Source of the DNA: a virus
Virus record (IMG/VR): IMGVR_UViG_3300009529_000037
Span: 1-27,699 of that record
Reading direction: 5' to 3' (one strand)
DNA length: 27,699 bases
This document shows, piece after piece, positions 2,568 through 12,404 of the stretch (its first letter is position 1; every line of letters starts with the position of its first letter). A program made the translations under genes and the position numbers. Under the pieces are notes generated by a model. It was not told the DNA's origin, ran no database searches, and worked only from the letters and a program-made list of their open reading frames with translations.

Positions 2568-2732
2568 ATGAGGCTCAAAAAACCAAAGGTATTTTCGTTC
2601 TGGTTGGACCAACGGCATATCGATTTTCTGGAATTGTTCAAAGATTTCCATAATCTATCGTCGAGAGGAGCCGCGTTGCGTGCCATCATCGATATTGTAT
2701 CCAAACTATTTCAAAAAGGAGAAACACAATGA
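2568..2732 (+). CDS. Small ribbon-helix-helix-like protein, probable regulator (54 aa)
   Basis: The 54-codon frame begins ATGAGGCTC and ends in the TGA that overlaps the next gene's ATG (ATGA at 2729-2732). The protein has a short N-terminal strand-like segment KVFSFWLD (7-14), a helix around QRHIDFLELFKDF (15-27), and a second helix starting at SSRGAALRAIIDIV (31-44). That order and length match MetJ/Arc-type DNA-binding proteins, though no family was identified with certainty. No Shine-Dalgarno precedes the start, consistent with leaderless translation from the promoter just upstream. Its position as first gene of the cassette, next to the TGTGAC repeats, suggests an autoregulator. It could also be a spurious small frame, but the exact overlap with the next gene argues against that. 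Confidence 0.6.
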   Translation: MRLKKPKVFSFWLDQRHIDFLELFKDFHNLSSRGAALRAIIDIVSKLFQKGETQ

Positions 2733-3352
2733 CCAATGTCAATTGCTCATATACTAAAATGGTACCAATAGATCAATTGAAAGAAAATCCAGTCAACCCG
2801 AATACCCATCCGTTCAGGCAAATAGAAATATTGGCCAAAATCATCAAAGAGCTGGGGTGGAGAGCCCCCATCACCGTCTCGAACCAGTCGGGATTCATCG
2901 TCCGCGGGCACGGCCGGCTCGAAGCTGCAAAAATGCTCAACCTCACCGAGGTCCCCATCGACTTCCAGGACTACCCAAACGAAACCGCAGAGCTCGCAGA
3001 CCTGGTCGCCGATAACCGAGTGTCAGATCTGTCCGTGTGGTCCGAGGCCGACCTCCTGCCCATCCTCAACGAGCTGTCCGAGTCGGGAGTCGAAATAGAA
3101 AACCTGGGATGGAAGGAAGAAGAGCTCGAAGCCATGCTCGCGCAAATGGATACCGAATCGCCTCCCGAAGACCCAGGCCAACCAGAACAACCAGACGATC
3201 GATTCGTGCGATTCCAGTTCGGAGATTATCGAGGCCTGGTCGCTCGCGAAGTCTATGAAAAGTTCGTGAACCATTATAAACGCATCCAGCTCGATACCGG
3301 GCAGCCGATGCTCACCGACATACTCAAGGAGTTATTCCATGGGGATCGTTGA
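2729..3352 (+). CDS. ParB/Srx-fold N-terminal domain protein
   Basis: A 207-residue protein with a ParB-like N-terminal domain: the region starting PVNPNTHP (21-28), the strongly conserved VRGHGRLEAA (58-67) and the following ADNR (94-97). In phages this domain is often encoded beside, or fused to, DNA methyltransferases, where it is thought to guide or support DNA modification rather than partition. The acidic, proline-rich linker around 131-146 is followed by a short C-terminal domain of unknown role. The start is set by AAGGAG at 2716-2721, seven bases before ATG, and overlaps the upstream stop. The C-terminus overlaps the methyltransferase start by 14 bases, implying translational coupling. 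No catalytic residues specific to a nuclease could be confirmed. Confidence 0.85.
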   Translation: MTNVNCSYTKMVPIDQLKENPVNPNTHPFRQIEILAKIIKELGWRAPITVSNQSGFIVRGHGRLEAAKMLNLTEVPIDFQDYPNETAELADLVADNRVSDLSVWSEADLLPILNELSESGVEIENLGWKEEELEAMLAQMDTESPPEDPGQPEQPDDRFVRFQFGDYRGLVAREVYEKFVNHYKRIQLDTGQPMLTDILKELFHGDR

Positions 3353-4346
3353 TTCGCTCAAACAGTCGGCCGTCAACAAGAAGGCCATGCTCAAAAGGTT
3401 CGGGTTCATACCGTATTCCATCCTGAAGATGTCCAGAGGCCCTCTATCCAAAAAGGTATTCACCCTGCAACATGAATATCCAGAGCGAGGTACAGTCTCA
3501 ACCGGGTTCGGGGATGTCGTTACCGACAAGGCCAAAGAATCTCTCGAAGTAAGAAAGCAAAAAGGGCTTCTCGGAGGAGTCATATCGAAACGAGCGGAAG
3601 GTGTCGCACTTCGGCAGCAACGAGAAGAACGAAACAAAGCCCCGCAAGACGAAGGCGGGAAGATGTTCGTGCCGCAATACGATGGAGGTGCCCCGGTCCG
3701 AATGAATGCTACAGTCATGCCGGCCGAGCTCGTCGAGTTCTTCATCAAGTACTACTCATCCCCAGGCCAGGTGTACCTCGATCCGTTCATGGGGCAAGGT
3801 ATCCAAATGCAAGTGGCCAAAATGTACGGCCTCGACTACTATGGGTACGACATCTCGGAAGAGTTCTTCAACTATATCAAATCGACCAAAGACAAAATCG
3901 ACGACGGCGCCACCGTCATCCAAACAACCCTCGGGGACTCTCGATACCCGACCGAAATACCCGACGACATCGGCGACTTCTCGTTCCACTCCCCGCCCTA
4001 TTGGGACATCGAGTACTATGGCGATGAGCCGGAGCAACTCGGTCGAGGAACCTACGAAGAGTTCCTCGAATCGATGTCTCAAGTCTATAAAAGCTGGTTG
4101 CCGAAATTCAAACCGGGTGCCTACCATATCGCCAATGTCAACGACTTCCGAAGAAAAGGAACCTATTATTCATACCACGCCGACACCATCCAGCTTTTCA
4201 AAGACGCAGGATGGGAGTTGTACGATACCTGGATAATCGATGGGCTCGTCGGGGGGTTGCCGAAAGGATTCGCCGTCTCTTTCAACCTCAAAAAAATAGC
4301 ACCCAAAGTCCACGAGTATGCTCTCGTGTTCAGGAAACCAGAATGA
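3339..4346 (+). CDS. DNA methyltransferase-like enzyme (SPPY motif)
   Basis: A 335-residue AdoMet-dependent DNA base amino-methyltransferase homologue. The AdoMet-binding motif I appears as YLDPFMGQG (146-154), followed by GYDISEEF (169-176) and the catalytic motif IV SPPYW (218-222). The order is motif I before motif IV. SPPY is most common in N4-cytosine enzymes but also occurs in others, so the target base is uncertain. The first 110 residues, including RFGFIPYSIL (20-29) and SRGPLSKK (32-39), form an extra N-terminal module of a type found in phage methyltransferases beside ParB genes. The start is backed by AAGGAG at 3326-3331. The gene overlaps both neighbours, the downstream GNAT gene by ATGA. 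No partner restriction endonuclease is present, so this is a lone modification enzyme, probably protecting or marking phage DNA. Because an AdoMet decarboxylase follows, its cofactor may not be ordinary AdoMet (inference). Confidence 0.87.
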   Translation: MGIVDSLKQSAVNKKAMLKRFGFIPYSILKMSRGPLSKKVFTLQHEYPERGTVSTGFGDVVTDKAKESLEVRKQKGLLGGVISKRAEGVALRQQREERNKAPQDEGGKMFVPQYDGGAPVRMNATVMPAELVEFFIKYYSSPGQVYLDPFMGQGIQMQVAKMYGLDYYGYDISEEFFNYIKSTKDKIDDGATVIQTTLGDSRYPTEIPDDIGDFSFHSPPYWDIEYYGDEPEQLGRGTYEEFLESMSQVYKSWLPKFKPGAYHIANVNDFRRKGTYYSYHADTIQLFKDAGWELYDTWIIDGLVGGLPKGFAVSFNLKKIAPKVHEYALVFRKPE

Positions 4347-4777
4347 AATATGCCACCATCGAAGACCTCGATGCCATAATGGACATCGTGAAAAAATACC
4401 GAAAAACAGTTTTTCCCTATTTTCGAGAGGACAAATTAAAAGAAAAAATACAGCGATCGGAAGTCATGCTCGATAAACAAACGTTTATCATTTTCGGTAC
4501 ATATCGAAAACGAACTTGGTTGGGTGAGGTATGTGCTCATAAAGGAGATATGGCAATCCACGAAATTGGCACTGAGGAACAAGGTTCTGGTTGTGCGCAC
4601 GATGTCTTGGCCGAGTTCATCGACAATTTTTCTGGAAAAAAGATATGGTTGACTGTGCGCAAAGAAAACGAGCGAGCAGTTCGATTCTATATAAAACACG
4701 AATTTGAAATAGTGGGAGGTATTCTGTGGTCGGATGGAAAGTTGCCGGGTTGCGTAATGATGAGGAGTCCAAAATGA
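4343..4777 (+). CDS. GNAT-family N-acetyltransferase
   Basis: A 144-residue GNAT-fold acyltransferase. The acetyl-CoA pyrophosphate-binding loop is visible as EEQGSGCA (78-85), followed by helix HDVLAEFID. The later motif TVRKENERAVRFYIKHEF (104-121) matches the conserved N-x-x-A-x-x-F/Y-Y segment of motif B. I chose the ATG at 4343 because it overlaps the methyltransferase stop as ATGA; a longer in-frame reading would lie wholly inside the methyltransferase. The acceptor cannot be read from sequence. Context between a DNA methyltransferase and an AdoMet decarboxylase suggests an amine acceptor: either a polyamine or an amino group placed on DNA. Phage Mu Mom, a DNA-modifying enzyme, also has a GNAT-type fold, which is a precedent for the fold acting on DNA, but this protein shows no clear Mom resemblance. 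Confidence 0.83.
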   Translation: MKYATIEDLDAIMDIVKKYRKTVFPYFREDKLKEKIQRSEVMLDKQTFIIFGTYRKRTWLGEVCAHKGDMAIHEIGTEEQGSGCAHDVLAEFIDNFSGKKIWLTVRKENERAVRFYIKHEFEIVGGILWSDGKLPGCVMMRSPK

Positions 4778-5094
4778 AGTTAGCTGAACATCTATTCATC
4801 ACAATAATCGGCGATGTCGCTGACGAACGGAAAACATTTCACACCCTGCTCGATGCGTGCCACAAAGCTAATGCGCGAGTGTGCGGGACCTCAAAGCACG
4901 AGTTCTATCCACGAGGGTTTTCAGCCATTGTACTCATCAGTGAGTCGCACGCAAGCGTCCACACCTGGCCGGAAAGCAACGTCGCGCTCGTGGATTTTTT
5001 TACTTGCGCAAACCCTACAGGATTCGATAATTTCATCGAAGCGTGGGAGGATGCGGGATACACAATTGCCACAAAAGAGGTGCTAAATCGATAA
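4774..5094 (+). CDS. speD: S-adenosylmethionine decarboxylase proenzyme (SpeD/SpeH-like)
   Basis: A 106-residue pyruvoyl-dependent decarboxylase of the short bacterial/archaeal AdoMet decarboxylase class. The signature ISESHASVHTWPE lies at 55-67. Self-cleavage is expected between Glu57 and Ser58, turning Ser58 into the pyruvoyl cofactor. His63 and Cys78 (in DFFTC) occupy the positions of the processing and catalytic residues of the Thermotoga enzyme. The family usually runs about 115-130 residues, so this is compact at both ends but complete in active-site residues. The product in the canonical reaction is decarboxylated AdoMet, the aminopropyl donor for spermidine synthesis. No aminopropyltransferase is in the window. 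ATG 4774 overlaps the GNAT stop and has AGGAG at 4763-4767. Some SpeD homologues decarboxylate ornithine or arginine instead, and this cannot be excluded here. Confidence 0.92.
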   Translation: MKLAEHLFITIIGDVADERKTFHTLLDACHKANARVCGTSKHEFYPRGFSAIVLISESHASVHTWPESNVALVDFFTCANPTGFDNFIEAWEDAGYTIATKEVLNR

Positions 5095-5118: not shown

Positions 5119-5733
5119 ATGGGTAACTATCGTAAAAAATTTGTGGCTGTGAACGACCGAAAGGAACACGAGCGCCAGCCAGGCGAACCCGATAGAGCTT
5201 GGAAAGGATTCACTATTTACCGAGACATCGGTTTTACTCGAACGCTTTTGAAAGCGGCAATCGAGTACCGCAAAATAGTCGGTGTCACGGAAAGTAAAGA
5301 GAAATCTACTCATCGGAACTTCCAAAATTGGTCTATCAGATGGGGTTGGGTGCGTCGATGCGAAAGCTGGGATCGCGAGGTCGATAAGCAGCGACGGAGA
5401 ATAGCTCTTGAAGAAGTGAAGAGGATGCGGGATCGGCATGTGCAATTGAGTATGTCGATGCAGCAAGTAGGGGCGACAGAGCTTAATAAATTATTGAAAG
5501 ATGTGAAGGCAAAAGCCGAAGAAGGGCTTTTGGGTGCGACGGACATCCGATACCTGATTGAAACGGGAATGAAGTTAGAGCGCATGAGTCGCGGTGAGCC
5601 TGATTCGATAACAGAGGAACGAAAAGAAATTTCGGGAGATGCTGCACGCGAGGAGTTGAGGGCGTTGTTCGAGGACAAGGAGTCGCGTGATAATCTGCGA
5701 GAACTTGCAAAGAAATTAGTCGAAAAAGAATGA
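5119..5733 (+). CDS. Terminase small subunit (probable)
   Basis: A 204-residue, highly charged, helical protein immediately upstream of the large terminase and overlapping it by ATGA. The segment FQNWSIRWGWVRRCESWD (about residues 69-86) matches the tryptophan- and arginine-rich pattern common in small terminase or phage DNA-recognition proteins, where an N-terminal helix-turn-helix binds packaging sites. The following 100 residues look like a coiled-coil oligomerization region. The protein would recognise phage DNA and deliver it to the large subunit. Position and composition support the role; no single diagnostic catalytic motif exists for this family. Confidence 0.75.
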   Translation: MGNYRKKFVAVNDRKEHERQPGEPDRAWKGFTIYRDIGFTRTLLKAAIEYRKIVGVTESKEKSTHRNFQNWSIRWGWVRRCESWDREVDKQRRRIALEEVKRMRDRHVQLSMSMQQVGATELNKLLKDVKAKAEEGLLGATDIRYLIETGMKLERMSRGEPDSITEERKEISGDAAREELRALFEDKESRDNLRELAKKLVEKE

Positions 5734-7154
5734 ACGAGTTAGCGCACGCCGACCGCGAGATATTAATCGAAGAGAATGTTTGGCGGTCGGGGCTTGCGTC
5801 TTATGCGGTTTACGCTTCGCATTGGCGGCAAAAATGGAAACCTTATAAGTTCCTCATCAAACTCGCTGACGCAATCGAAGACGCTGTCCACACTCCTAAC
5901 TCCCGTCTGATAATCAACGCCCCGCCCCGACACGGCAAGAGCCAGCTCGTGTCGCACTGGTTGCCGGTTTGGTATCTCGATTGGTTCCCGGAAAAACGGA
6001 TCATCTTGGGTGCATATGGTGATTCACTCGCACGCGATTGGGGGCGAATTGTACGTGACGAGTTTTTGATGAATGAGAAGTGTTGGACAGCTCTTCGACG
6101 CGATACCCAGGCGGTTGACGACTGGAGAACGACACGCGATGGGGGAATGAGGACGGCCGGTGTCGGGGGGCCCATCGTAGGCAAAGGCGCCGACCTCATT
6201 ATCATCGACGACCCGCACAAGTCGTGGGAGGATGCGATGTCGCCGACGTCGCGTCAGCGTCTAATCGATTGGTTCAACGGCACTCTTTATCACCGTGCTG
6301 AGCCTGGCGCTTCTATCATCATGATTATGACTCGATGGCATGAGGACGACTTGACCGGGTATTTTCTTGACCGGCATGCGGACGATTGGCAGTCGGTCAG
6401 TATGCCTGCCTTGGCTGATGGGGATGACGACATACTCGGGCGTGAAGAGGGCGAGCCGTTGTGTGAGGAGAGATTCGATGCAGAGCGACTTGGAAAGATA
6501 AAATTGGCGATGGGTTCGCACATGTTCGCAGGTCTATATCAGCAGCGCCCGAGCCCTCTTGCAGGCGGTATGATAAAGCGCGAATGGTTTCAGCGATACA
6601 GCGAGATTCCGGAAAACCTTGAGGAATACATTCAATCATGGGATTTGACTTTCAAGGCTACCGGCCGCAGCTATGTCGTCGGGCAAGTATGGGGTCGGAA
6701 GGGCTCTAACTGTTATTTGATGCCCGATCAAACGCGCGAGCGCATGGGATTCCCTGAACAGCTTCGAGCGATTCGTATGATGTCGAGTCGATGGAAGCAG
6801 ACGACCGATATATTGATAGAGGATGCGGCCGACGGACCGGCTGCGGTTGCGACTTTAAAAGATGAAATATCGGGCATACTTCCGAAACCGCCTAGAGGTA
6901 GCAAAGAGGCGCGACTCGCTGCGGTGTCGGGTATGATCGAAGCAGGTAACGTACATCTGCCTGATGCATCGCTCGCACCTTGGATTGACGACTTTATCGA
7001 AGAGGTGGTAGTGTTCCCCAACGCGGTTAACGACGATCAGGTGGATGCGATGACAATGGCACTCAACCATCTTCGGCAAAACACATACAACGTGGATATA
7101 GCTTTACCGGACACGGGCGTGCGCTCAAGTCCTTGGGAGTTTGCACATGTCTAA
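5730..7154 (+). CDS. Terminase large subunit (packaging ATPase-nuclease)
   Basis: A 474-residue packaging motor. The ATPase half has Walker A APPRHGKS (64-71) and Walker B LIIIDDP (156-162), with the coupling-type segment MTRWHEDDL near 200-208. The RNase H-like nuclease half has acidic residues in SWDLTF (D305), ILIEDAADG (361-369) and NDDQVDAM (434-441). Length and motif order are complete and typical. It cuts concatemeric DNA and pumps it through the portal. It overlaps the small terminase by ATGA at the 5' end and the portal gene by 8 bases at the 3' end. Confidence 0.96.
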   Translation: MNELAHADREILIEENVWRSGLASYAVYASHWRQKWKPYKFLIKLADAIEDAVHTPNSRLIINAPPRHGKSQLVSHWLPVWYLDWFPEKRIILGAYGDSLARDWGRIVRDEFLMNEKCWTALRRDTQAVDDWRTTRDGGMRTAGVGGPIVGKGADLIIIDDPHKSWEDAMSPTSRQRLIDWFNGTLYHRAEPGASIIMIMTRWHEDDLTGYFLDRHADDWQSVSMPALADGDDDILGREEGEPLCEERFDAERLGKIKLAMGSHMFAGLYQQRPSPLAGGMIKREWFQRYSEIPENLEEYIQSWDLTFKATGRSYVVGQVWGRKGSNCYLMPDQTRERMGFPEQLRAIRMMSSRWKQTTDILIEDAADGPAAVATLKDEISGILPKPPRGSKEARLAAVSGMIEAGNVHLPDASLAPWIDDFIEEVVVFPNAVNDDQVDAMTMALNHLRQNTYNVDIALPDTGVRSSPWEFAHV

Positions 7155-8589
7155 AATAGACTTCGGTGTAATCGGGTTCTCAGGTCTCAAAGAATACGGC
7201 GGATATATCGATGAAGAGTGGCACCCCAAACTTCGAGGTTATTACGGGCCGAAGTTGTATCGAGAAATGGGCGACAACAGCTCGGCAATCGGTGCTATCA
7301 AGTACATCATTCAAGCTCTCGTGCGGCAAGTCGAGTGGAGGGTTGAGCCCGCAGACGATTCGAAAGAAGCGCAAGAACAAGCAGAGTTTCTTGAAACGTG
7401 CGTAATCGATATGTCGATAACCTGGGAGGATTTCATCTCCGAGGTATTGAGTTTCCTTGAATATGGTTGGTCCTATTTTGAAATCATTTACAAGTTGCGT
7501 AAAGGGTTGGACACAAAAAACCCGAGGACACGCAGCCAGTTCGACGACGGCAAAATCGGTTGGAGGAAGCTGGCACTCCGGGCCCAGGATACTCTTGAGC
7601 GTTGGCAGTTTGACGAGGACGACAACGGCCTTCGCGGCATGCATCAATCGAGCGAGTACACAGGCAAAGCGGCGTTCATCCCTATCGAGAAGGCTTTGCT
7701 GTTTCGGACGGTGACTCGCAAAGACAATCCCGAAGGGCGCAGCATCTATCGTAACGCGGTCGTCGATTATTTCTATCTCAAGCGAATCAGCGAGATCGAG
7801 GCCATCGGCATCGAGCGCGATATGACCGGCTTGCTGACCATGGAAGTTCCTTTGCAGTTGCTTCATCCTGACGCTGATGCCAAGTCGGTCAGCCTTCGAT
7901 CGGCTTTCGAAAAGATGCTGTCCGAGTTGAAACGAGACGAGCGCGAATATGCTTTGGTTCCTCCTGAAATAGACAAAGACGGAAAGCCGACCGGATACAA
8001 ACTCAAACTTCTGAGTTCAGGCGGTCGTCGACAGATAGATACAAACGCGGTGAAGCTGTATTACAAGGTCGGCATCCTTCAATCAGTGCTCGCGCAGTTC
8101 ATCCAGCTCGGCATGAGCGGGGTCGGGTCGTTTGCTCTTGCATCGACTCAAACCGATATGTTCGCGGTGGCTCTCGGGTCGTACCTGAACACGATAGCGT
8201 CGGTCATCAATCGCTTCGGCGTATCGCGCTTGATGGCGGTCAACAGCGTAAAGCAAGATTTGTGGCCCGAGCTGGTTCACGGTGACATCGAGAGCCCGCC
8301 TCTTGCGGAGATAGGTGCATACGTGCAAGCGCTTGCTTCATCGGGTCAGTTGCCTGAAGATGAGGCCATACAACGCAAGCTTTTAGAGATCGCCAATCTG
8401 CCGATGCCCGAGAAAGAAGAAGGAGAGAAGGCAGAGAAACAGAAAAAGTCTAAAGGCGGGTTTGTACGAAAAGTAATACCTGGTCTTCACCTCGTACAAC
8501 CTTCTGGAAAATGCCCGTATTGCGGCAAGCCGGTACGAGGTAAACCAGAGCGATGTCCTCATTGCGATAGGTCATTAGTGGCAGCATGA
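7147..8589 (+). CDS. Portal protein, Mu gp29/DUF935-like, with C-terminal zinc ribbon
   Basis: A 480-residue portal that forms the DNA channel at the head vertex. Recognisable stretches are the N-terminal GPKLYREMGDNSSAIGAI, the ITWEDFISEVLSFLEYGWSYFEI region and the central RISEIEAIGIERDMTG, all in the pattern of DUF935 portals. I start it at ATG 7147 (GGGAG seven bases upstream) rather than the TTG at 7141. The tail is unusual: CPYC at 456-459 and CPHC at 470-473, separated by 10 residues rich in Lys, Arg, Gly and Pro, make a typical zinc ribbon that Mu-type portals do not normally carry. It follows a Lys/Glu-rich linker (about 423-436). The ribbon might contact DNA, the terminase or a head protein. 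Confidence 0.9.
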   Translation: MSKIDFGVIGFSGLKEYGGYIDEEWHPKLRGYYGPKLYREMGDNSSAIGAIKYIIQALVRQVEWRVEPADDSKEAQEQAEFLETCVIDMSITWEDFISEVLSFLEYGWSYFEIIYKLRKGLDTKNPRTRSQFDDGKIGWRKLALRAQDTLERWQFDEDDNGLRGMHQSSEYTGKAAFIPIEKALLFRTVTRKDNPEGRSIYRNAVVDYFYLKRISEIEAIGIERDMTGLLTMEVPLQLLHPDADAKSVSLRSAFEKMLSELKRDEREYALVPPEIDKDGKPTGYKLKLLSSGGRRQIDTNAVKLYYKVGILQSVLAQFIQLGMSGVGSFALASTQTDMFAVALGSYLNTIASVINRFGVSRLMAVNSVKQDLWPELVHGDIESPPLAEIGAYVQALASSGQLPEDEAIQRKLLEIANLPMPEKEEGEKAEKQKKSKGGFVRKVIPGLHLVQPSGKCPYCGKPVRGKPERCPHCDRSLVAA

Positions 8590-10394
8590 CTTTCGTTCAG
8601 TACTACAAACACGAGCGCATATTAAAAGCTCGACGTAAAAGAAAACCAGAATGGCAGAAGCGTCTGCCTCATGATACTCCGGCCGGTCGCGAGGCATACG
8701 CGATAGCGGCGAAGCACGAGAACAAATTCGCGCGCGCGTTTTTAGAAGCGACACAATCGCTTCTCACCAACAGAATAGCGGCGGATTTTAACGCGGTATG
8801 GCGAGCGGGCGGCGGGCCTGAGAAAGTCATGGCGACGTTGCCTTTCTTCGGCACGGACATCAAACCGGAAGTGTGGGACGATTTCATCGAGCGCATATTG
8901 AAAGCATATTCAGCAGTGATTCAAGAAGCAGGCGAAGAAAACACTGAGGAGATGAATCGCAAATTCCGAACGAACATGAAGTTCTCGCTCGAAGATAAAG
9001 AAGAAATTCCAGTCGTGCCTATCAACCCATACTCGATAGAATGGGTTCGCAATCGTTCATTAGAACTTGCGAAGCAAGGCATCTCCGACCAGCAACGCGA
9101 GGTAGTGCGCGACATCATTGATCGCGGGTTTTCTGAAGGCGTGCGTGCTGAAGAAGCATACGGCGCGATAAAGAAAAATATTGGTTTGACTCATCGCGAA
9201 TACAACGCAGTTATCAACCGCGAAATAATGCTCGAAGAAGCGGGATGGGCCGATGCCGACGTGAAACACCTGACTGAGAAATATCGTGATGAGCTTTTAG
9301 GAAAACGAGCGATGCGCATTGCGCGAACCGAAACGATGTTTGCTCAAGCACAAGGGCGGAATGCCAGTTGGCAGATGGCGCAAGATTCGGGCATTTTGCC
9401 TCCCGTCGTGCGCGAGTGGGTAGCAGTGCCAGGCGCGTGCGAAATATGTGGAGAGCTTGATGGACAGGAAGCACCGGTGGGCGGGGCGTATGAGAGCACT
9501 GAGGGTCCGGTTGAGTCTCCCCCCGCTCATCCGAACTGTTTACCGGGGGACGCGGCAGTATTGGCCTCGGGAGTTTCGGCCTCGAGTAAACGTTGGTACG
9601 ATGGAGATTTGGTCATCTTGACTACTGCCCTGGGCAACAAGCTCGCCTGCACCCCGAATCATCCTATACTCACAATGAGTGGGTGGAAAGCTGCGCATTT
9701 GCTTAACGTAGGAGATGACGTAATCAGTTACATCGGAGGAGAGAGCGTGCCCTCTTCTTGGTTCGGACATAATCAAAAGAACATGCCAGTCGTTCGAGAT
9801 AAGATATCGAATCTTGCGAAGAAGCTGGGTTTGACGTCGTCCGTACCAGTGCCAGGAACCTCCAAGGATTTCCACGGCGACGGGAACGATGCCGATGTCA
9901 CAATTATACGGACCAAGAGCTTGTTGTGGTCGAACTTCAAGTCCTCGTTGTTCAAGCATTTTGGCAAACTCAAGTTCTTCAGTCGTCGCATGAGTGAGAT
10001 GCTTTTCGCATGTAAACGCTCTTTTAAGTTTCTCTTCATGAGTTCGCGGCTTGCCTCGAACGGCATCATGAGCAGCCTTTGCTCTTTGCAGCCGTTCGCT
10101 TTTGCTCAGGCTTTGCATGTAGATTCTACCGGCTTCGCTTTGCCCTCGAATGCAAATTCCTTTGATTTTGAGAAGTCGCCGAATAACATTCCGGCTGACG
10201 CCCCAGATTTTAGCCAACGACTTCTCGCTAGTTCCAGCGATATAGTCGCCGACAATGTCATCAATGTGGATGTCCAAAGATTTTCTGGCCATGTGTATAA
10301 CCTCCAATGTTTGTCTGGTTACTATATATCACAAAACATAATTAGCCACAACTGCGCGTGTACTGAAATCTTGAAAAGAGCGAAAGGGCGATGA
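8586..10394 (+). CDS. Mu gpF-like head morphogenesis protein containing an intein
   Basis: The 602-codon frame encodes a minor head protein of the Mu gpF/SPP1 gp7 family, needed in early head assembly and found beside the portal. Typical parts are RAMRIARTETMFAQAQGRNA, CEICGELDGQEAPVGG and PPAHPN. The family's C-terminal HPNCxC motif is split: HPN ends at residue 317, a 272-residue intein occupies 318-589, and CACTEILKRAKGR follows. After splicing the protein would be 330 residues, a normal length, with HPNCAC restored. The gene overlaps the portal stop (ATGA). The frame is uninterrupted through the intein, so splicing happens at the protein level. Confidence 0.92.
   Translation: MTFVQYYKHERILKARRKRKPEWQKRLPHDTPAGREAYAIAAKHENKFARAFLEATQSLLTNRIAADFNAVWRAGGGPEKVMATLPFFGTDIKPEVWDDFIERILKAYSAVIQEAGEENTEEMNRKFRTNMKFSLEDKEEIPVVPINPYSIEWVRNRSLELAKQGISDQQREVVRDIIDRGFSEGVRAEEAYGAIKKNIGLTHREYNAVINREIMLEEAGWADADVKHLTEKYRDELLGKRAMRIARTETMFAQAQGRNASWQMAQDSGILPPVVREWVAVPGACEICGELDGQEAPVGGAYESTEGPVESPPAHPNCLPGDAAVLASGVSASSKRWYDGDLVILTTALGNKLACTPNHPILTMSGWKAAHLLNVGDDVISYIGGESVPSSWFGHNQKNMPVVRDKISNLAKKLGLTSSVPVPGTSKDFHGDGNDADVTIIRTKSLLWSNFKSSLFKHFGKLKFFSRRMSEMLFACKRSFKFLFMSSRLASNGIMSSLCSLQPFAFAQALHVDSTGFALPSNANSFDFEKSPNNIPADAPDFSQRLLASSSDIVADNVINVDVQRFSGHVYNLQCLSGYYISQNIISHNCACTEILKRAKGR
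9540..10292 (-). CDS. Antisense Vsr-like (EDxHD) homing endonuclease nested in the intein
   Basis: A 250-residue protein encoded on the strand opposite the intein. ATG 10292-10290 is preceded by GGAGG (complement of 10301-10305), eight bases away, so the longer TTG start at 10307 is not needed. Residues about 24-44 (KSLAKIWGVSRNVIRRLLKIK) form a helix-turn-helix. Residues 105-180 follow the Vsr-like fold: TEELEFAKMLEQRGLEV, then CDIGIVPVAVEILGGSWHW with Asp132, Glu141 and His148 as likely catalytic residues, then RKIRYLISNDWHVLLI. This matches the EDxHD homing endonucleases first noted in introns and fractured intein genes of phages. It would cut intein-free copies of the head gene and drive spread of the intein. 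Its stop codon (TTA on the plus strand, 9540-9542) abuts intein Cys1, and its codons lie in exact register with the sense codons. Confidence 0.85.
   Translation of the reverse strand: MARKSLDIHIDDIVGDYIAGTSEKSLAKIWGVSRNVIRRLLKIKGICIRGQSEAGRIYMQSLSKSERLQRAKAAHDAVRGKPRTHEEKLKRAFTCEKHLTHATTEELEFAKMLEQRGLEVRPQQALGPYNCDIGIVPVAVEILGGSWHWYGRRQTQLLRKIRYLISNDWHVLLIMSEPRRGHALSSDVTDYVISYVKQMRSFPPTHCEYRMIRGAGELVAQGSSQDDQISIVPTFTRGRNSRGQYCRVPR
10323..10351 (-). promoter_or_regulatory. Candidate antisense promoter for the nested endonuclease
   Basis: On the minus strand TTGTGG (plus 10351-10346) is followed after 17 bases by TATATA (plus 10328-10323), preceded by TGA so that it forms an extended -10 (TGnTATA). 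Transcription would start near 10316, about 24 bases before the endonuclease ATG, leaving room for the GGAGG site. The promoter lies in the codons of the intein's last block, so the whole expression unit is inside the intein. The -35 match is weak. Confidence 0.4.
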
Positions 10395-10397
10395 CCA

Positions 10398-12404
10398 ATG
10401 CCTGAGTTCACACGAGAATTTTTAGAAGAAGTATATCGATTAGCAAAGAAGACATTGCCGGGCTGGGCGTATGCGACACTGCGCGCGCAGGCCAGGGCGG
10501 TATCGGGCGGGCGTGCAGCGCACCGAACGGATATTCCTAATGTGTTCGAGAAGGTATCGTTAGGAGTATTGAATTCCGAATCGATGAAGGACTTGTCCGA
10601 TGTTGAGGTGAAGGCCATTTGGGATCGATTGAACCAGTGGCACGCCAACGCCTTGAAGAAGAAAGGGCCGACCGATGTCCTTGTAACTGCTGCTCGTTCG
10701 GTGTTCGACATCATCCAAGATCGGAATATCAAATTCAAATCAAGCCCTTTGTGTGACCTGTTAGAGACTCCTGACAACATACCTGACGTAAAGAAATTGG
10801 TAGCATTTCTACCGATGACGGGTCCGGACGGGGCGTCGATAGCTTTTGTCGGTGCTTCTCCAAGCAAAATAGAGATCGCTCGGAATGAACCGTATGTTGG
10901 GCCGATTCGCAAGACATTCGAATCCAAATACCTGGTTCCTCTCGAGGTGGCTCGTGATGAAGTGATATTGGGGTATGCATGCCCTGAAGCATTCGCCGGA
11001 GAAAAAGGAAAAGTTAGAGAGCCGACCGATGAAGAGATAGCGATTTGGAAAGATTGGCTGTTCGACGAGCTCGACAAGGCGAGACCTCAAATTGTTATTG
11101 CTCTGGGACAGACCGCGCGCAAAGCGTTAGGCGATCGTGCTGATTTTGTCATGCCTCACCCATCTGCGGTAGACCGATTCGGAGATTCGGGAGAAGTCGC
11201 ACGCAAGATTAAACGCATCAAAGAGGCTTTATCCGATATTGAGAAGGCCGACCTCGGTGCAAAATGGTTCGAGATTTTTCCGAAAAGCGGCAAAGGTAAG
11301 TTCTCGTATCAGCATCATTGGCGAGGGCTCAGCGAAGATGAGACAAAATTATCTGATAAAGAATTGCTTGCTACAGATCATTCTTTACACGGGGACTTGA
11401 GGTTGGGCGGGGACAAAGGTCTTTGGGGTTGGACGATATTCCTGGGGGAGACAAAAGAGAATCGTGGGAAGGATGGCGATAAATTCATTTCGATGAAGCC
11501 TGGTGGCAGTTTGCGAGTTACGCCGAAGACGATTCATCCAGAAGAATGGCTTCGGGTCGGGTCGCAATTGGCTGGTCAAATAAACAAACCAGGAGAGCCG
11601 GGTTCGGGTCCTGAATCGCATTCAAAATTCTTTGTAGAGGATTCTGGGACGTACGAATTGGGAGTGGCGACAGAGCACTCTATTGAAATTTTCCTTGACG
11701 GCAAGCATTTAAATGGTAAATATTTGTTAATATATCCTCGATTAGGCGGGGAGCGAGTTTGGCTGATTGACAAGCCGAAATCTCAAACGCCGCGAGCCGA
11801 GGAAGAAAAACTCGCTGATGTCATAAGCGAGCAGCGCAAGAAGGGGCGGCAATATGTCGTCTGGGCAAAGCCGGGAATGAAACCGGTTTTATACAACACG
11901 CGCTCTGGCGAAGTGGTCAAAGGCGAAATGATTCCCATCTCGAAAGCAGATCCCCTCAAAAAGATTGTCTACGGCATTGTTGCCGATCCCTATGGCGTCC
12001 GAGGTGCCCAGGCCGATGCACATGATGACTGGATGATGCCATCCACTGTCGAAGGCATGGCGCACGATTACATCGGAAAAGACATGGTGATCGGGTTTCA
12101 ACACAATAAAAAAGCTGATGCTTGTCCCGTAGAAAGTTGGGTCGAACAGTATCCCAGCCCAGAGGATTATCTCAAGGCGATGAAGGGTGAACCGCATAAA
12201 GTCTATCGACGTAAATTCGGAGATGACGTGATTCATTCAGGTTCATGGGGTCTTGGTGTTCGACTCGGCGAAAAAGAGTGGGGTGCTTACGAGAAAGGCG
12301 AAATCAATGCGTTCAGCCCGGGCGGGCTGGGTCTTCGCACGCCTATCACTCCATCTCAAATGCCGAAGGTCGAGTTCATCGATCTTGTACCGAAAGGAAT
12401 CTAA
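10398..12404 (+). CDS. Fusion protein: UDG-like domain, LigD phosphoesterase-like domain, XkdF-like prohead protease
   Basis: A 668-residue multidomain head gene. Residues about 133-278 resemble family 4/5 uracil-DNA glycosylases: IAFVGASPSK (148-157), EPYVGP (164-169), RPQIVIALG (229-237) and MPHPSA (252-257). The cysteines that hold the iron-sulfur cluster in family 4 are not evident. Residues about 300-460 resemble the 3'-phosphoesterase domain of LigD: FSYQHHW (302-308), DHSLHGDLRL (327-336) and VWLIDKP. Residues about 517-650 match the XkdF/S78_2 putative phage serine protease: IVYGIVADPYG (523-533), QADAHDDWM (538-546), VIGFQHN (564-570) and INAFSPGGLG (636-645). The protease would mature the prohead. 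The two DNA-repair-like domains in a capsid gene are unusual. N-terminal residues 1-130 are helical and unassigned. Confidence 0.78.
   Translation: MPEFTREFLEEVYRLAKKTLPGWAYATLRAQARAVSGGRAAHRTDIPNVFEKVSLGVLNSESMKDLSDVEVKAIWDRLNQWHANALKKKGPTDVLVTAARSVFDIIQDRNIKFKSSPLCDLLETPDNIPDVKKLVAFLPMTGPDGASIAFVGASPSKIEIARNEPYVGPIRKTFESKYLVPLEVARDEVILGYACPEAFAGEKGKVREPTDEEIAIWKDWLFDELDKARPQIVIALGQTARKALGDRADFVMPHPSAVDRFGDSGEVARKIKRIKEALSDIEKADLGAKWFEIFPKSGKGKFSYQHHWRGLSEDETKLSDKELLATDHSLHGDLRLGGDKGLWGWTIFLGETKENRGKDGDKFISMKPGGSLRVTPKTIHPEEWLRVGSQLAGQINKPGEPGSGPESHSKFFVEDSGTYELGVATEHSIEIFLDGKHLNGKYLLIYPRLGGERVWLIDKPKSQTPRAEEEKLADVISEQRKKGRQYVVWAKPGMKPVLYNTRSGEVVKGEMIPISKADPLKKIVYGIVADPYGVRGAQADAHDDWMMPSTVEGMAHDYIGKDMVIGFQHNKKADACPVESWVEQYPSPEDYLKAMKGEPHKVYRRKFGDDVIHSGSWGLGVRLGEKEWGAYEKGEINAFSPGGLGLRTPITPSQMPKVEFIDLVPKGI

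Follow-up and report, generated by a model that had tools for sequence, protein, structure and literature searches.

The window analyzed here was the whole 27,699-nucleotide stretch of a 27.7-kb IMG/VR virus contig record (IMGVR_UViG_3300009529_000037). Immediately upstream of its packaging genes, it carried a cassette with the following genes, all on the plus strand: a ParB-like gene (positions 2729 to 3352), a gene for an N6_N4-type methyltransferase (MTase)-fold enzyme (3339 to 4346), and a gene for a class 1b S-adenosylmethionine (AdoMet or SAM) decarboxylase, SpeD (4774 to 5094). ParB-MTase plus SpeD is a widespread phage cassette, and we consider it fairly probable from the comparison of sequences that SpeD would supply decarboxylated SAM (dcSAM), which the ParB-guided enzyme would use to aminopropylate a DNA base. 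The use of dcSAM as the cofactor of the paired MTases is strongly indicated, because the pairing was conserved, a residue of the cofactor pocket switched with SpeD, and the switch reversed.

Recurrence of the MTase–SpeD pair

The pair was found in two named phages with named hosts: (i) Croceibacter phage P2559S, reached by tblastn with the MTase, in which the genes for ParB-MTase gp66 and AdoMet decarboxylase gp67, close to the terminase, shared 38 bases, and (ii) Pseudomonas phage ZRG1, in which the overlap was 11 bases and terminase genes followed. The main text of PMC9992855 reports that P2559S SpeD restores spermidine in an Escherichia coli speD deletion strain and is hence a true AdoMet decarboxylase; the word "methyltransferase" occurs 0 times in this main text, which leaves the ParB-MTase pairing unmentioned. 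When viral contigs were searched with P2559S SpeD, a ParB-MTase was present at 72/80 loci, and a search with the window's own MTase clade found additional SpeD pairs. Clustering at 75% identity gave 44 distinct paired MTases from two deeply separate MTase clades: 33 from clade A (P2559S type) and 11 from clade B (window type). The SpeD start was placeable in 42/44, overlapping the MTase stop in 26 and lying within 60 bases in 34, and the catalytic Ser/His/Cys were retained in 78/80 distinct SpeD open reading frames (ORFs) from paired loci. SpeD as such was untied to MTases, because none of the 35 loci from the search with window-type SpeD had an MTase match.

Two further arrangements were observed at paired loci: two consecutive Gln-type MTases followed by one SpeD (L304:4707-7341), and a gene for an Nmad5 nucleotide-modification-associated protein a few kilobases downstream of the ZRG1 pair (L135:11479-12078).

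The cofactor pocket and its switch with SpeD

The window MTase matched N6_N4_Mtase (PF01555) at 1.1e-17 (65.2 bits, above the 26.7 cut-off) and contained motifs I and IV of enzymes acting on exocyclic amines; PF01564 (Spermine_synth) was absent from its Pfam matches, and thus it was not filed as a spermidine synthase (SpeE). Its motif IV was SPPYW, and its motif I was DPFMGQGIQ (residues 148 to 156), with Gln156 at position 9, where unpaired relatives carry Arg; this pocket residue argues against SAM use by the window MTase. Over all sources, position 9 was Arg in 147/150 distinct unpaired enzymes (the rest being one Gln and two Lys), whereas all 44 paired enzymes had Phe/Ile or Gln there. The motif forms were (i) mostly DxFAGD[ST]xFG in paired and mostly DPFAGGSVRG in unpaired enzymes of clade A and (ii) GQG[IVA]Q in paired and G[QH][GN]xR in unpaired enzymes of clade B. 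By residue, the paired fractions were 33/33 for Phe/Ile, 0/113 for Arg, and 0/2 for Lys in clade A, and 11/12 for Gln (locus L312 counted) and 0/34 for Arg in clade B. A motif X Lys, considered first, was discarded as the marker because motif I was what separated paired from unpaired enzymes.

The association was also present in searches based on the MTase, which did not use SpeD: SpeD lay within 1.5 kb of 13/13 Asp..Phe enzymes and 0/143 Gly..Arg enzymes; two Asp..Lys enzymes were without SpeD, and the motif was unreadable in four ORFs. After 75% clustering of these searches, enzymes other than Arg/Lys were paired in 8/8 cases and Arg/Lys enzymes in 0/106 in clade A (Fisher p 1.8e-12), the corresponding numbers in clade B being 10/11 and 0/34 (p 3.4e-9); both p-values are too small owing to the relatedness of rows. 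Ten ORFs with motifs unreadable by pattern (six without a parsed motif) were left out of the tree and the 75% counts, as were matches weaker than 1e-25 and the window's own copy (L001). Among the omitted ORFs, DNFAGDTVFG (L078 and L089) was paired and DPYAGG..R (L171 and L266) was unpaired, consistent with the rule. When whole records were searched, SpeD was found in 0/50 records of Arg-type clade A MTases and, above the cut-off, in 11/42 clade B records: 10 had Gln enzymes, and one (L343) had an Arg enzyme lying more than 30 kb from its SpeD.

All columns of the domain were then scanned blindly for information on pairing (193 rows, L312 omitted). Motif I position 9 headed the ranking in each clade, where it was also the sole perfect column, and position 6 ranked seventh or better in either clade. 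In a motif-masked tree of 121 rows, for which 40 of the 113 distinct Arg-type members of clade A were sampled at random, SpeD changed 7 times and charge changed 7 times, the two being concordant in every row with L312 set aside; on strongly supported (starred) branches, 4/4 independent pairs agreed. The reversals comprised L278 and L289 of the Phe clade, which were without SpeD and bore Lys, and L037, L307, and L316 of the Gln clade, which were without SpeD and bore Arg. At L317, an Arg MTase was followed by a SpeD homologue (L317:4349-4732) with its cleavage Ser replaced by Gly and its catalytic His by Leu, apparently an inactive decarboxylase that has been retained. Radical-SAM proteins were encoded beside window-clade ParB-MTases at two loci: one with a B12-binding domain occupied the place of SpeD (L316:3907-5511), and another was located at L329:6400-7320.

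PMC5173035 names H168, T200, and S198 of M1.HpyAVI as residues in contact with the carboxyl group of AdoMet. S198 corresponded to motif I position 6, which was mostly Gly or His in unpaired enzymes and Asp or Gln in paired ones, and T200 corresponded to position 8, adjoining position 9; in profile alignments to 2zie and 8s9n, the Arg, Phe, or Gln of position 9 fell on the second Thr of GTT. The paired enzymes thus appear to lose a positive charge at the SAM carboxyl site, and those of clade A would also gain a negative charge. Because dcSAM is without a carboxyl group, charge loss near this site is as expected for a change of cofactor.

Proposed aminopropylation of DNA and competing explanations

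According to the proposed mechanism, SpeD would decarboxylate AdoMet to dcSAM, the adjoining ParB-guided MTase-fold enzyme would bind dcSAM rather than SAM, and the 3-aminopropyl group would be moved from dcSAM to an exocyclic amine of a DNA base (tentatively cytosine N4 or adenine N6); this would take place on replicated DNA, ahead of packaging or in the course of it. Taken together, pairing and pocket argue moderately for transfer of aminopropyl and not methyl. The benefit might conceivably lie in altered charge for packaging and in protection from nucleases, and an anti-restriction role may be envisaged.

The following points weigh against this proposal: (i) the paired MTases are known from their sequences; (ii) dcSAM also bears a methyl group; (iii) host spermidine synthase could be an alternative consumer of dcSAM; (iv) most of the 44 cassettes are non-independent, the clade A pairing having a single origin on the tree; (v) the sign test on starred branches had 4 pairs only and was not significant alone (p 0.125); (vi) position 9 adjoins a named carboxyl-contacting residue but is not one itself; (vii) L312 had a Gln enzyme without SpeD; and (viii) L329 was paired, but its SpeD had Ser in place of the catalytic His. 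The L312 MTase lacked the conserved C-terminus, and the terminase small subunit gene (terS) began 64 bases on, as if one deletion had taken both the MTase C-terminus and SpeD.

It is possible, though unlikely, that dcSAM is a private methyl donor, with DNA methylated by a cofactor untouched by host enzymes and by SAM-destroying defenses or counter-defenses. The pairing and the pocket switch would be explained equally well, and the motif IV of amino-methyltransferases was retained (SPPY, SCPPY); however, keeping SAM would be a simpler route to methylation, and to our knowledge dcSAM is not known as a natural methyl donor. A passage of PMC2933235 describes dcSAM as a methylation inhibitor and an aminopropyl donor, which also counts against this use.

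An explanation through polyamines, which we judge improbable, would have SpeD feed host spermidine synthesis for DNA condensation and packaging, an ordinary MTase sharing the terminase-proximal spot by chance. The cassettes were indeed near the large terminase, a second, SpeDC-like gene, indicating a polyamine context, was present at 4/8 loci that had P2559S-type SpeD but no MTase, and phage SpeD is known, from the main text of PMC9992855, to serve polyamine synthesis. However, Arg-type clade A MTases were as near to the terminase (large subunit within 5 kb in 60/82, median 816 bases) as paired ones (23/25, median 784 bases), yet SpeD accompanied none of them, counted either as distinct enzymes (0/113) or over whole records (0/50). 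SpeE (PF01564) was found in 0/49 paired phage records by a search whose control recovered SpeE in 11/14 known genomes, and host spermidine synthesis would leave the pocket switch and its reversals unexplained. At L075, L079, L085, and L103, a P2559S-type SpeD was observed beside a second SpeD-like gene resembling the ornithine-decarboxylating form.

It is quite unlikely that the residue follows SpeD through shared ancestry only, with no relevance to the cofactor: the clade A cassettes had one origin and further columns also split the groups there, but one and the same column was top-ranked in both of the deeply separate clades, each of which had SpeD-less sub-lineages bearing a positive residue. 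Depletion of SAM by SpeD, starving host restriction or defense enzymes like phage SAM lyases while the MTase protects phage DNA, is very unlikely: joint production of the two proteins is probable, given that most of the gene pairs overlap or are almost contiguous, but if SAM were scarce, the MTase should bind it more tightly, not shed charge near the carboxyl site.

If DNA aminopropylation with dcSAM is true, the paired MTase would be, as far as is known, the first nucleic-acid-modifying enzyme using decarboxylated SAM, and its product would be the first aminopropylated DNA base; phage carriage of speD would gain a new reason, the cofactor used by DNA methyltransferases could be predicted by a readable rule, from one pocket residue, and reactive primary amines could be attached to DNA as tags with an orthogonal cofactor–enzyme pair. 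No paper joining phage DNA modification with aminopropyl or decarboxylated SAM, or ParB-MTase with AdoMet decarboxylase, was found in the open-licence literature. The change of the cofactor pocket whenever the pair forms points to a hitherto undescribed DNA modification.

A broader view is offered only tentatively: ParB-MTases might be a general hypermodification platform with the cofactor set by the partner gene, (i) those with SpeD having become dcSAM-dependent DNA aminopropyltransferases at least twice and (ii) Arg-type ones with a pyridoxal phosphate (PLP)-dependent enzyme perhaps transferring the 3-amino-3-carboxypropyl group of SAM, followed by PLP-dependent processing on DNA. PLP-dependent (PALP) enzymes recurred with Arg-type ParB-MTases in three arrangements: immediately after the MTase in 10 distinct loci belonging to a single cluster (e.g., L175:1612-2310), overlapping the MTase in Vincenzo (L140:1406-2275, gp2), and inserted between MTase motifs I and IV in Pam4 (L048:4003-6492). 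The PALP enzyme thus appears to be a second partner type for the family; the open-licence literature yielded no paper joining phage hypermodification, ParB-methyltransferase, and PLP.

The window cassette, its GNAT gene, and known systems

A small ORF (54 amino acids, positions 2568 to 2732, plus strand) with no Pfam family opened the presumed transcription unit of the window and overlapped the ParB gene by 4 bases. The ParB-like protein, presumed to be the DNA-guiding part, matched Pfam ParB_N at 1.2e-4 (22.5 bits, below the Pfam cut-off of 26.3) and PHROG ParB/MTase families down to 1.5e-37; it was encoded by a separate gene, unlike in many clade A cassettes, in which the ParB domain was fused to the MTase. 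SpeD (106 amino acids) matched Pfam AdoMet_dc at 7.7e-20 (71.7 bits, above the cut-off of 25) and NCBIfam TIGR03330 at 69.9 bits, under the equivalog cut-off of 75.65, so that the relationship is shown and equivalog status is not; alignment to 1tlu showed that it retained Ser63, His68, and Cys83 of the Thermotoga maritima enzyme, with the cleavage Ser in ESH. Between MTase and SpeD lay a GNAT-like acetyltransferase gene (positions 4343 to 4777, plus strand) with weak profile matches: the best Pfam match had 16.6 bits (0.008), below the cut-off of 23.6, and a weak NCBIfam RimI-like match (4.1e-7) was also under its cut-off. The listed ORFs of GNAT and SpeD began at 4211 and at GTG 4726, respectively, but ATG at 4343 gave a 4-base ATGA overlap of GNAT with the MTase, and ATG at 4774 gave a 4-base overlap of SpeD with GNAT.

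The initial annotation had proposed that ParB, MTase, GNAT, and SpeD overlapped as one DNA-modifying device in which the MTase used dcSAM, and had suggested looking for the same foursome in other phages. The overlaps of 14 (ParB/MTase), 4 (MTase/GNAT), and 4 (GNAT/SpeD) bases were confirmed from the ORF coordinates, and dcSAM use by the MTase gained strong comparative support from the recurrent, mostly overlapping MTase–SpeD pair in two clades, the pocket residue that switched with pairing and reverted when SpeD was lost or dead, the P2559S SpeD proven biochemically by others, and the records free of spermidine synthase. The four-gene device was not supported, the foursome not being conserved: no GNAT relative was found by viral pattern search or by tblastn in phages and plasmids, and phmmer over the fetched ORFs gave nothing beyond the window's own copies. 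GNAT was accordingly rejected as a conserved cassette partner, having no relative at any other fetched locus; its single-sequence model was poor (predicted local distance difference test [pLDDT] 45.7) and was not used. In the window phage, GNAT may acetylate the new amine locally, a tentative role, or may be unrelated.

Downstream of SpeD, the plus strand encoded the terminase small subunit (positions 5119 to 5733, starting 25 bases past the SpeD stop) and large subunit (5730 to 7154). Two further genes were noted: one for a Mu F-like head protein in which residues 330 to 589 form an intein splicing domain (positions 8586 to 10394), and one ORF with an odd fusion of a uracil-DNA glycosylase superfamily domain (residues 141 to 261) and a phage head protease domain (residues 514 to 643) (positions 10398 to 12404).

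Compared to the PHROG 498 ParB-DNA methyltransferases (Enterococcus phiFL3A gp36, Listeria B054 gp77, and HCTV-2 gp11), the window enzyme had the same fold, ParB domain, and motif order and, as is often the case for them, lay before the terminase, but they had Arg in motif I and no SpeD, whereas the window enzyme had Gln and SpeD. The window SpeD shared family, size, and catalytic Ser-His-Cys with the phage class 1b AdoMet decarboxylases (cyanophage SpeD and P2559S gp67), which published work has treated as polyamine enzymes. The spermidine synthase SpeE has a methyltransferase-like fold and transfers aminopropyl from dcSAM onto an amine; its acceptor is a small polyamine, whereas the acceptor proposed here is DNA. 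The AlphaFold2 (AF2) core of the window MTase was confident (mean pLDDT 82.8), and the nearest solved folds among the matches listed were the Trm11/TrmN/Trm14 tRNA methyltransferases (N2-methylguanosine [m2G]), which act on an exocyclic amine (Z 18.3 to 19.5; root-mean-square deviation 2.0 to 3.1 over 172 to 184 residues), with Trm11-like enzymes heading the list; bacterial DNA methylases were not among the matches listed, which says nothing against kinship. Trm11/TrmN/Trm14 have an RNA substrate, SAM as cofactor, and a THUMP domain instead of ParB.

The alpha-putrescinylthymine of phage PhiW-14 is, as in our proposal, an amine side chain on phage DNA, but it is made from hydroxymethyluracil and putrescine at the thymine methyl position, whereas dcSAM and an exocyclic amine are proposed here. 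Passages of PMC5977210 on PhiW-14 state that the putrescinyl groups on thymine are needed for packaging of full-length DNA and alter restriction, and that the melting temperature falls to its expected value once these groups are acetylated. By analogy, the logic seen in PhiW-14 would also suit aminopropyl bases made by enzymes encoded next to the terminase.

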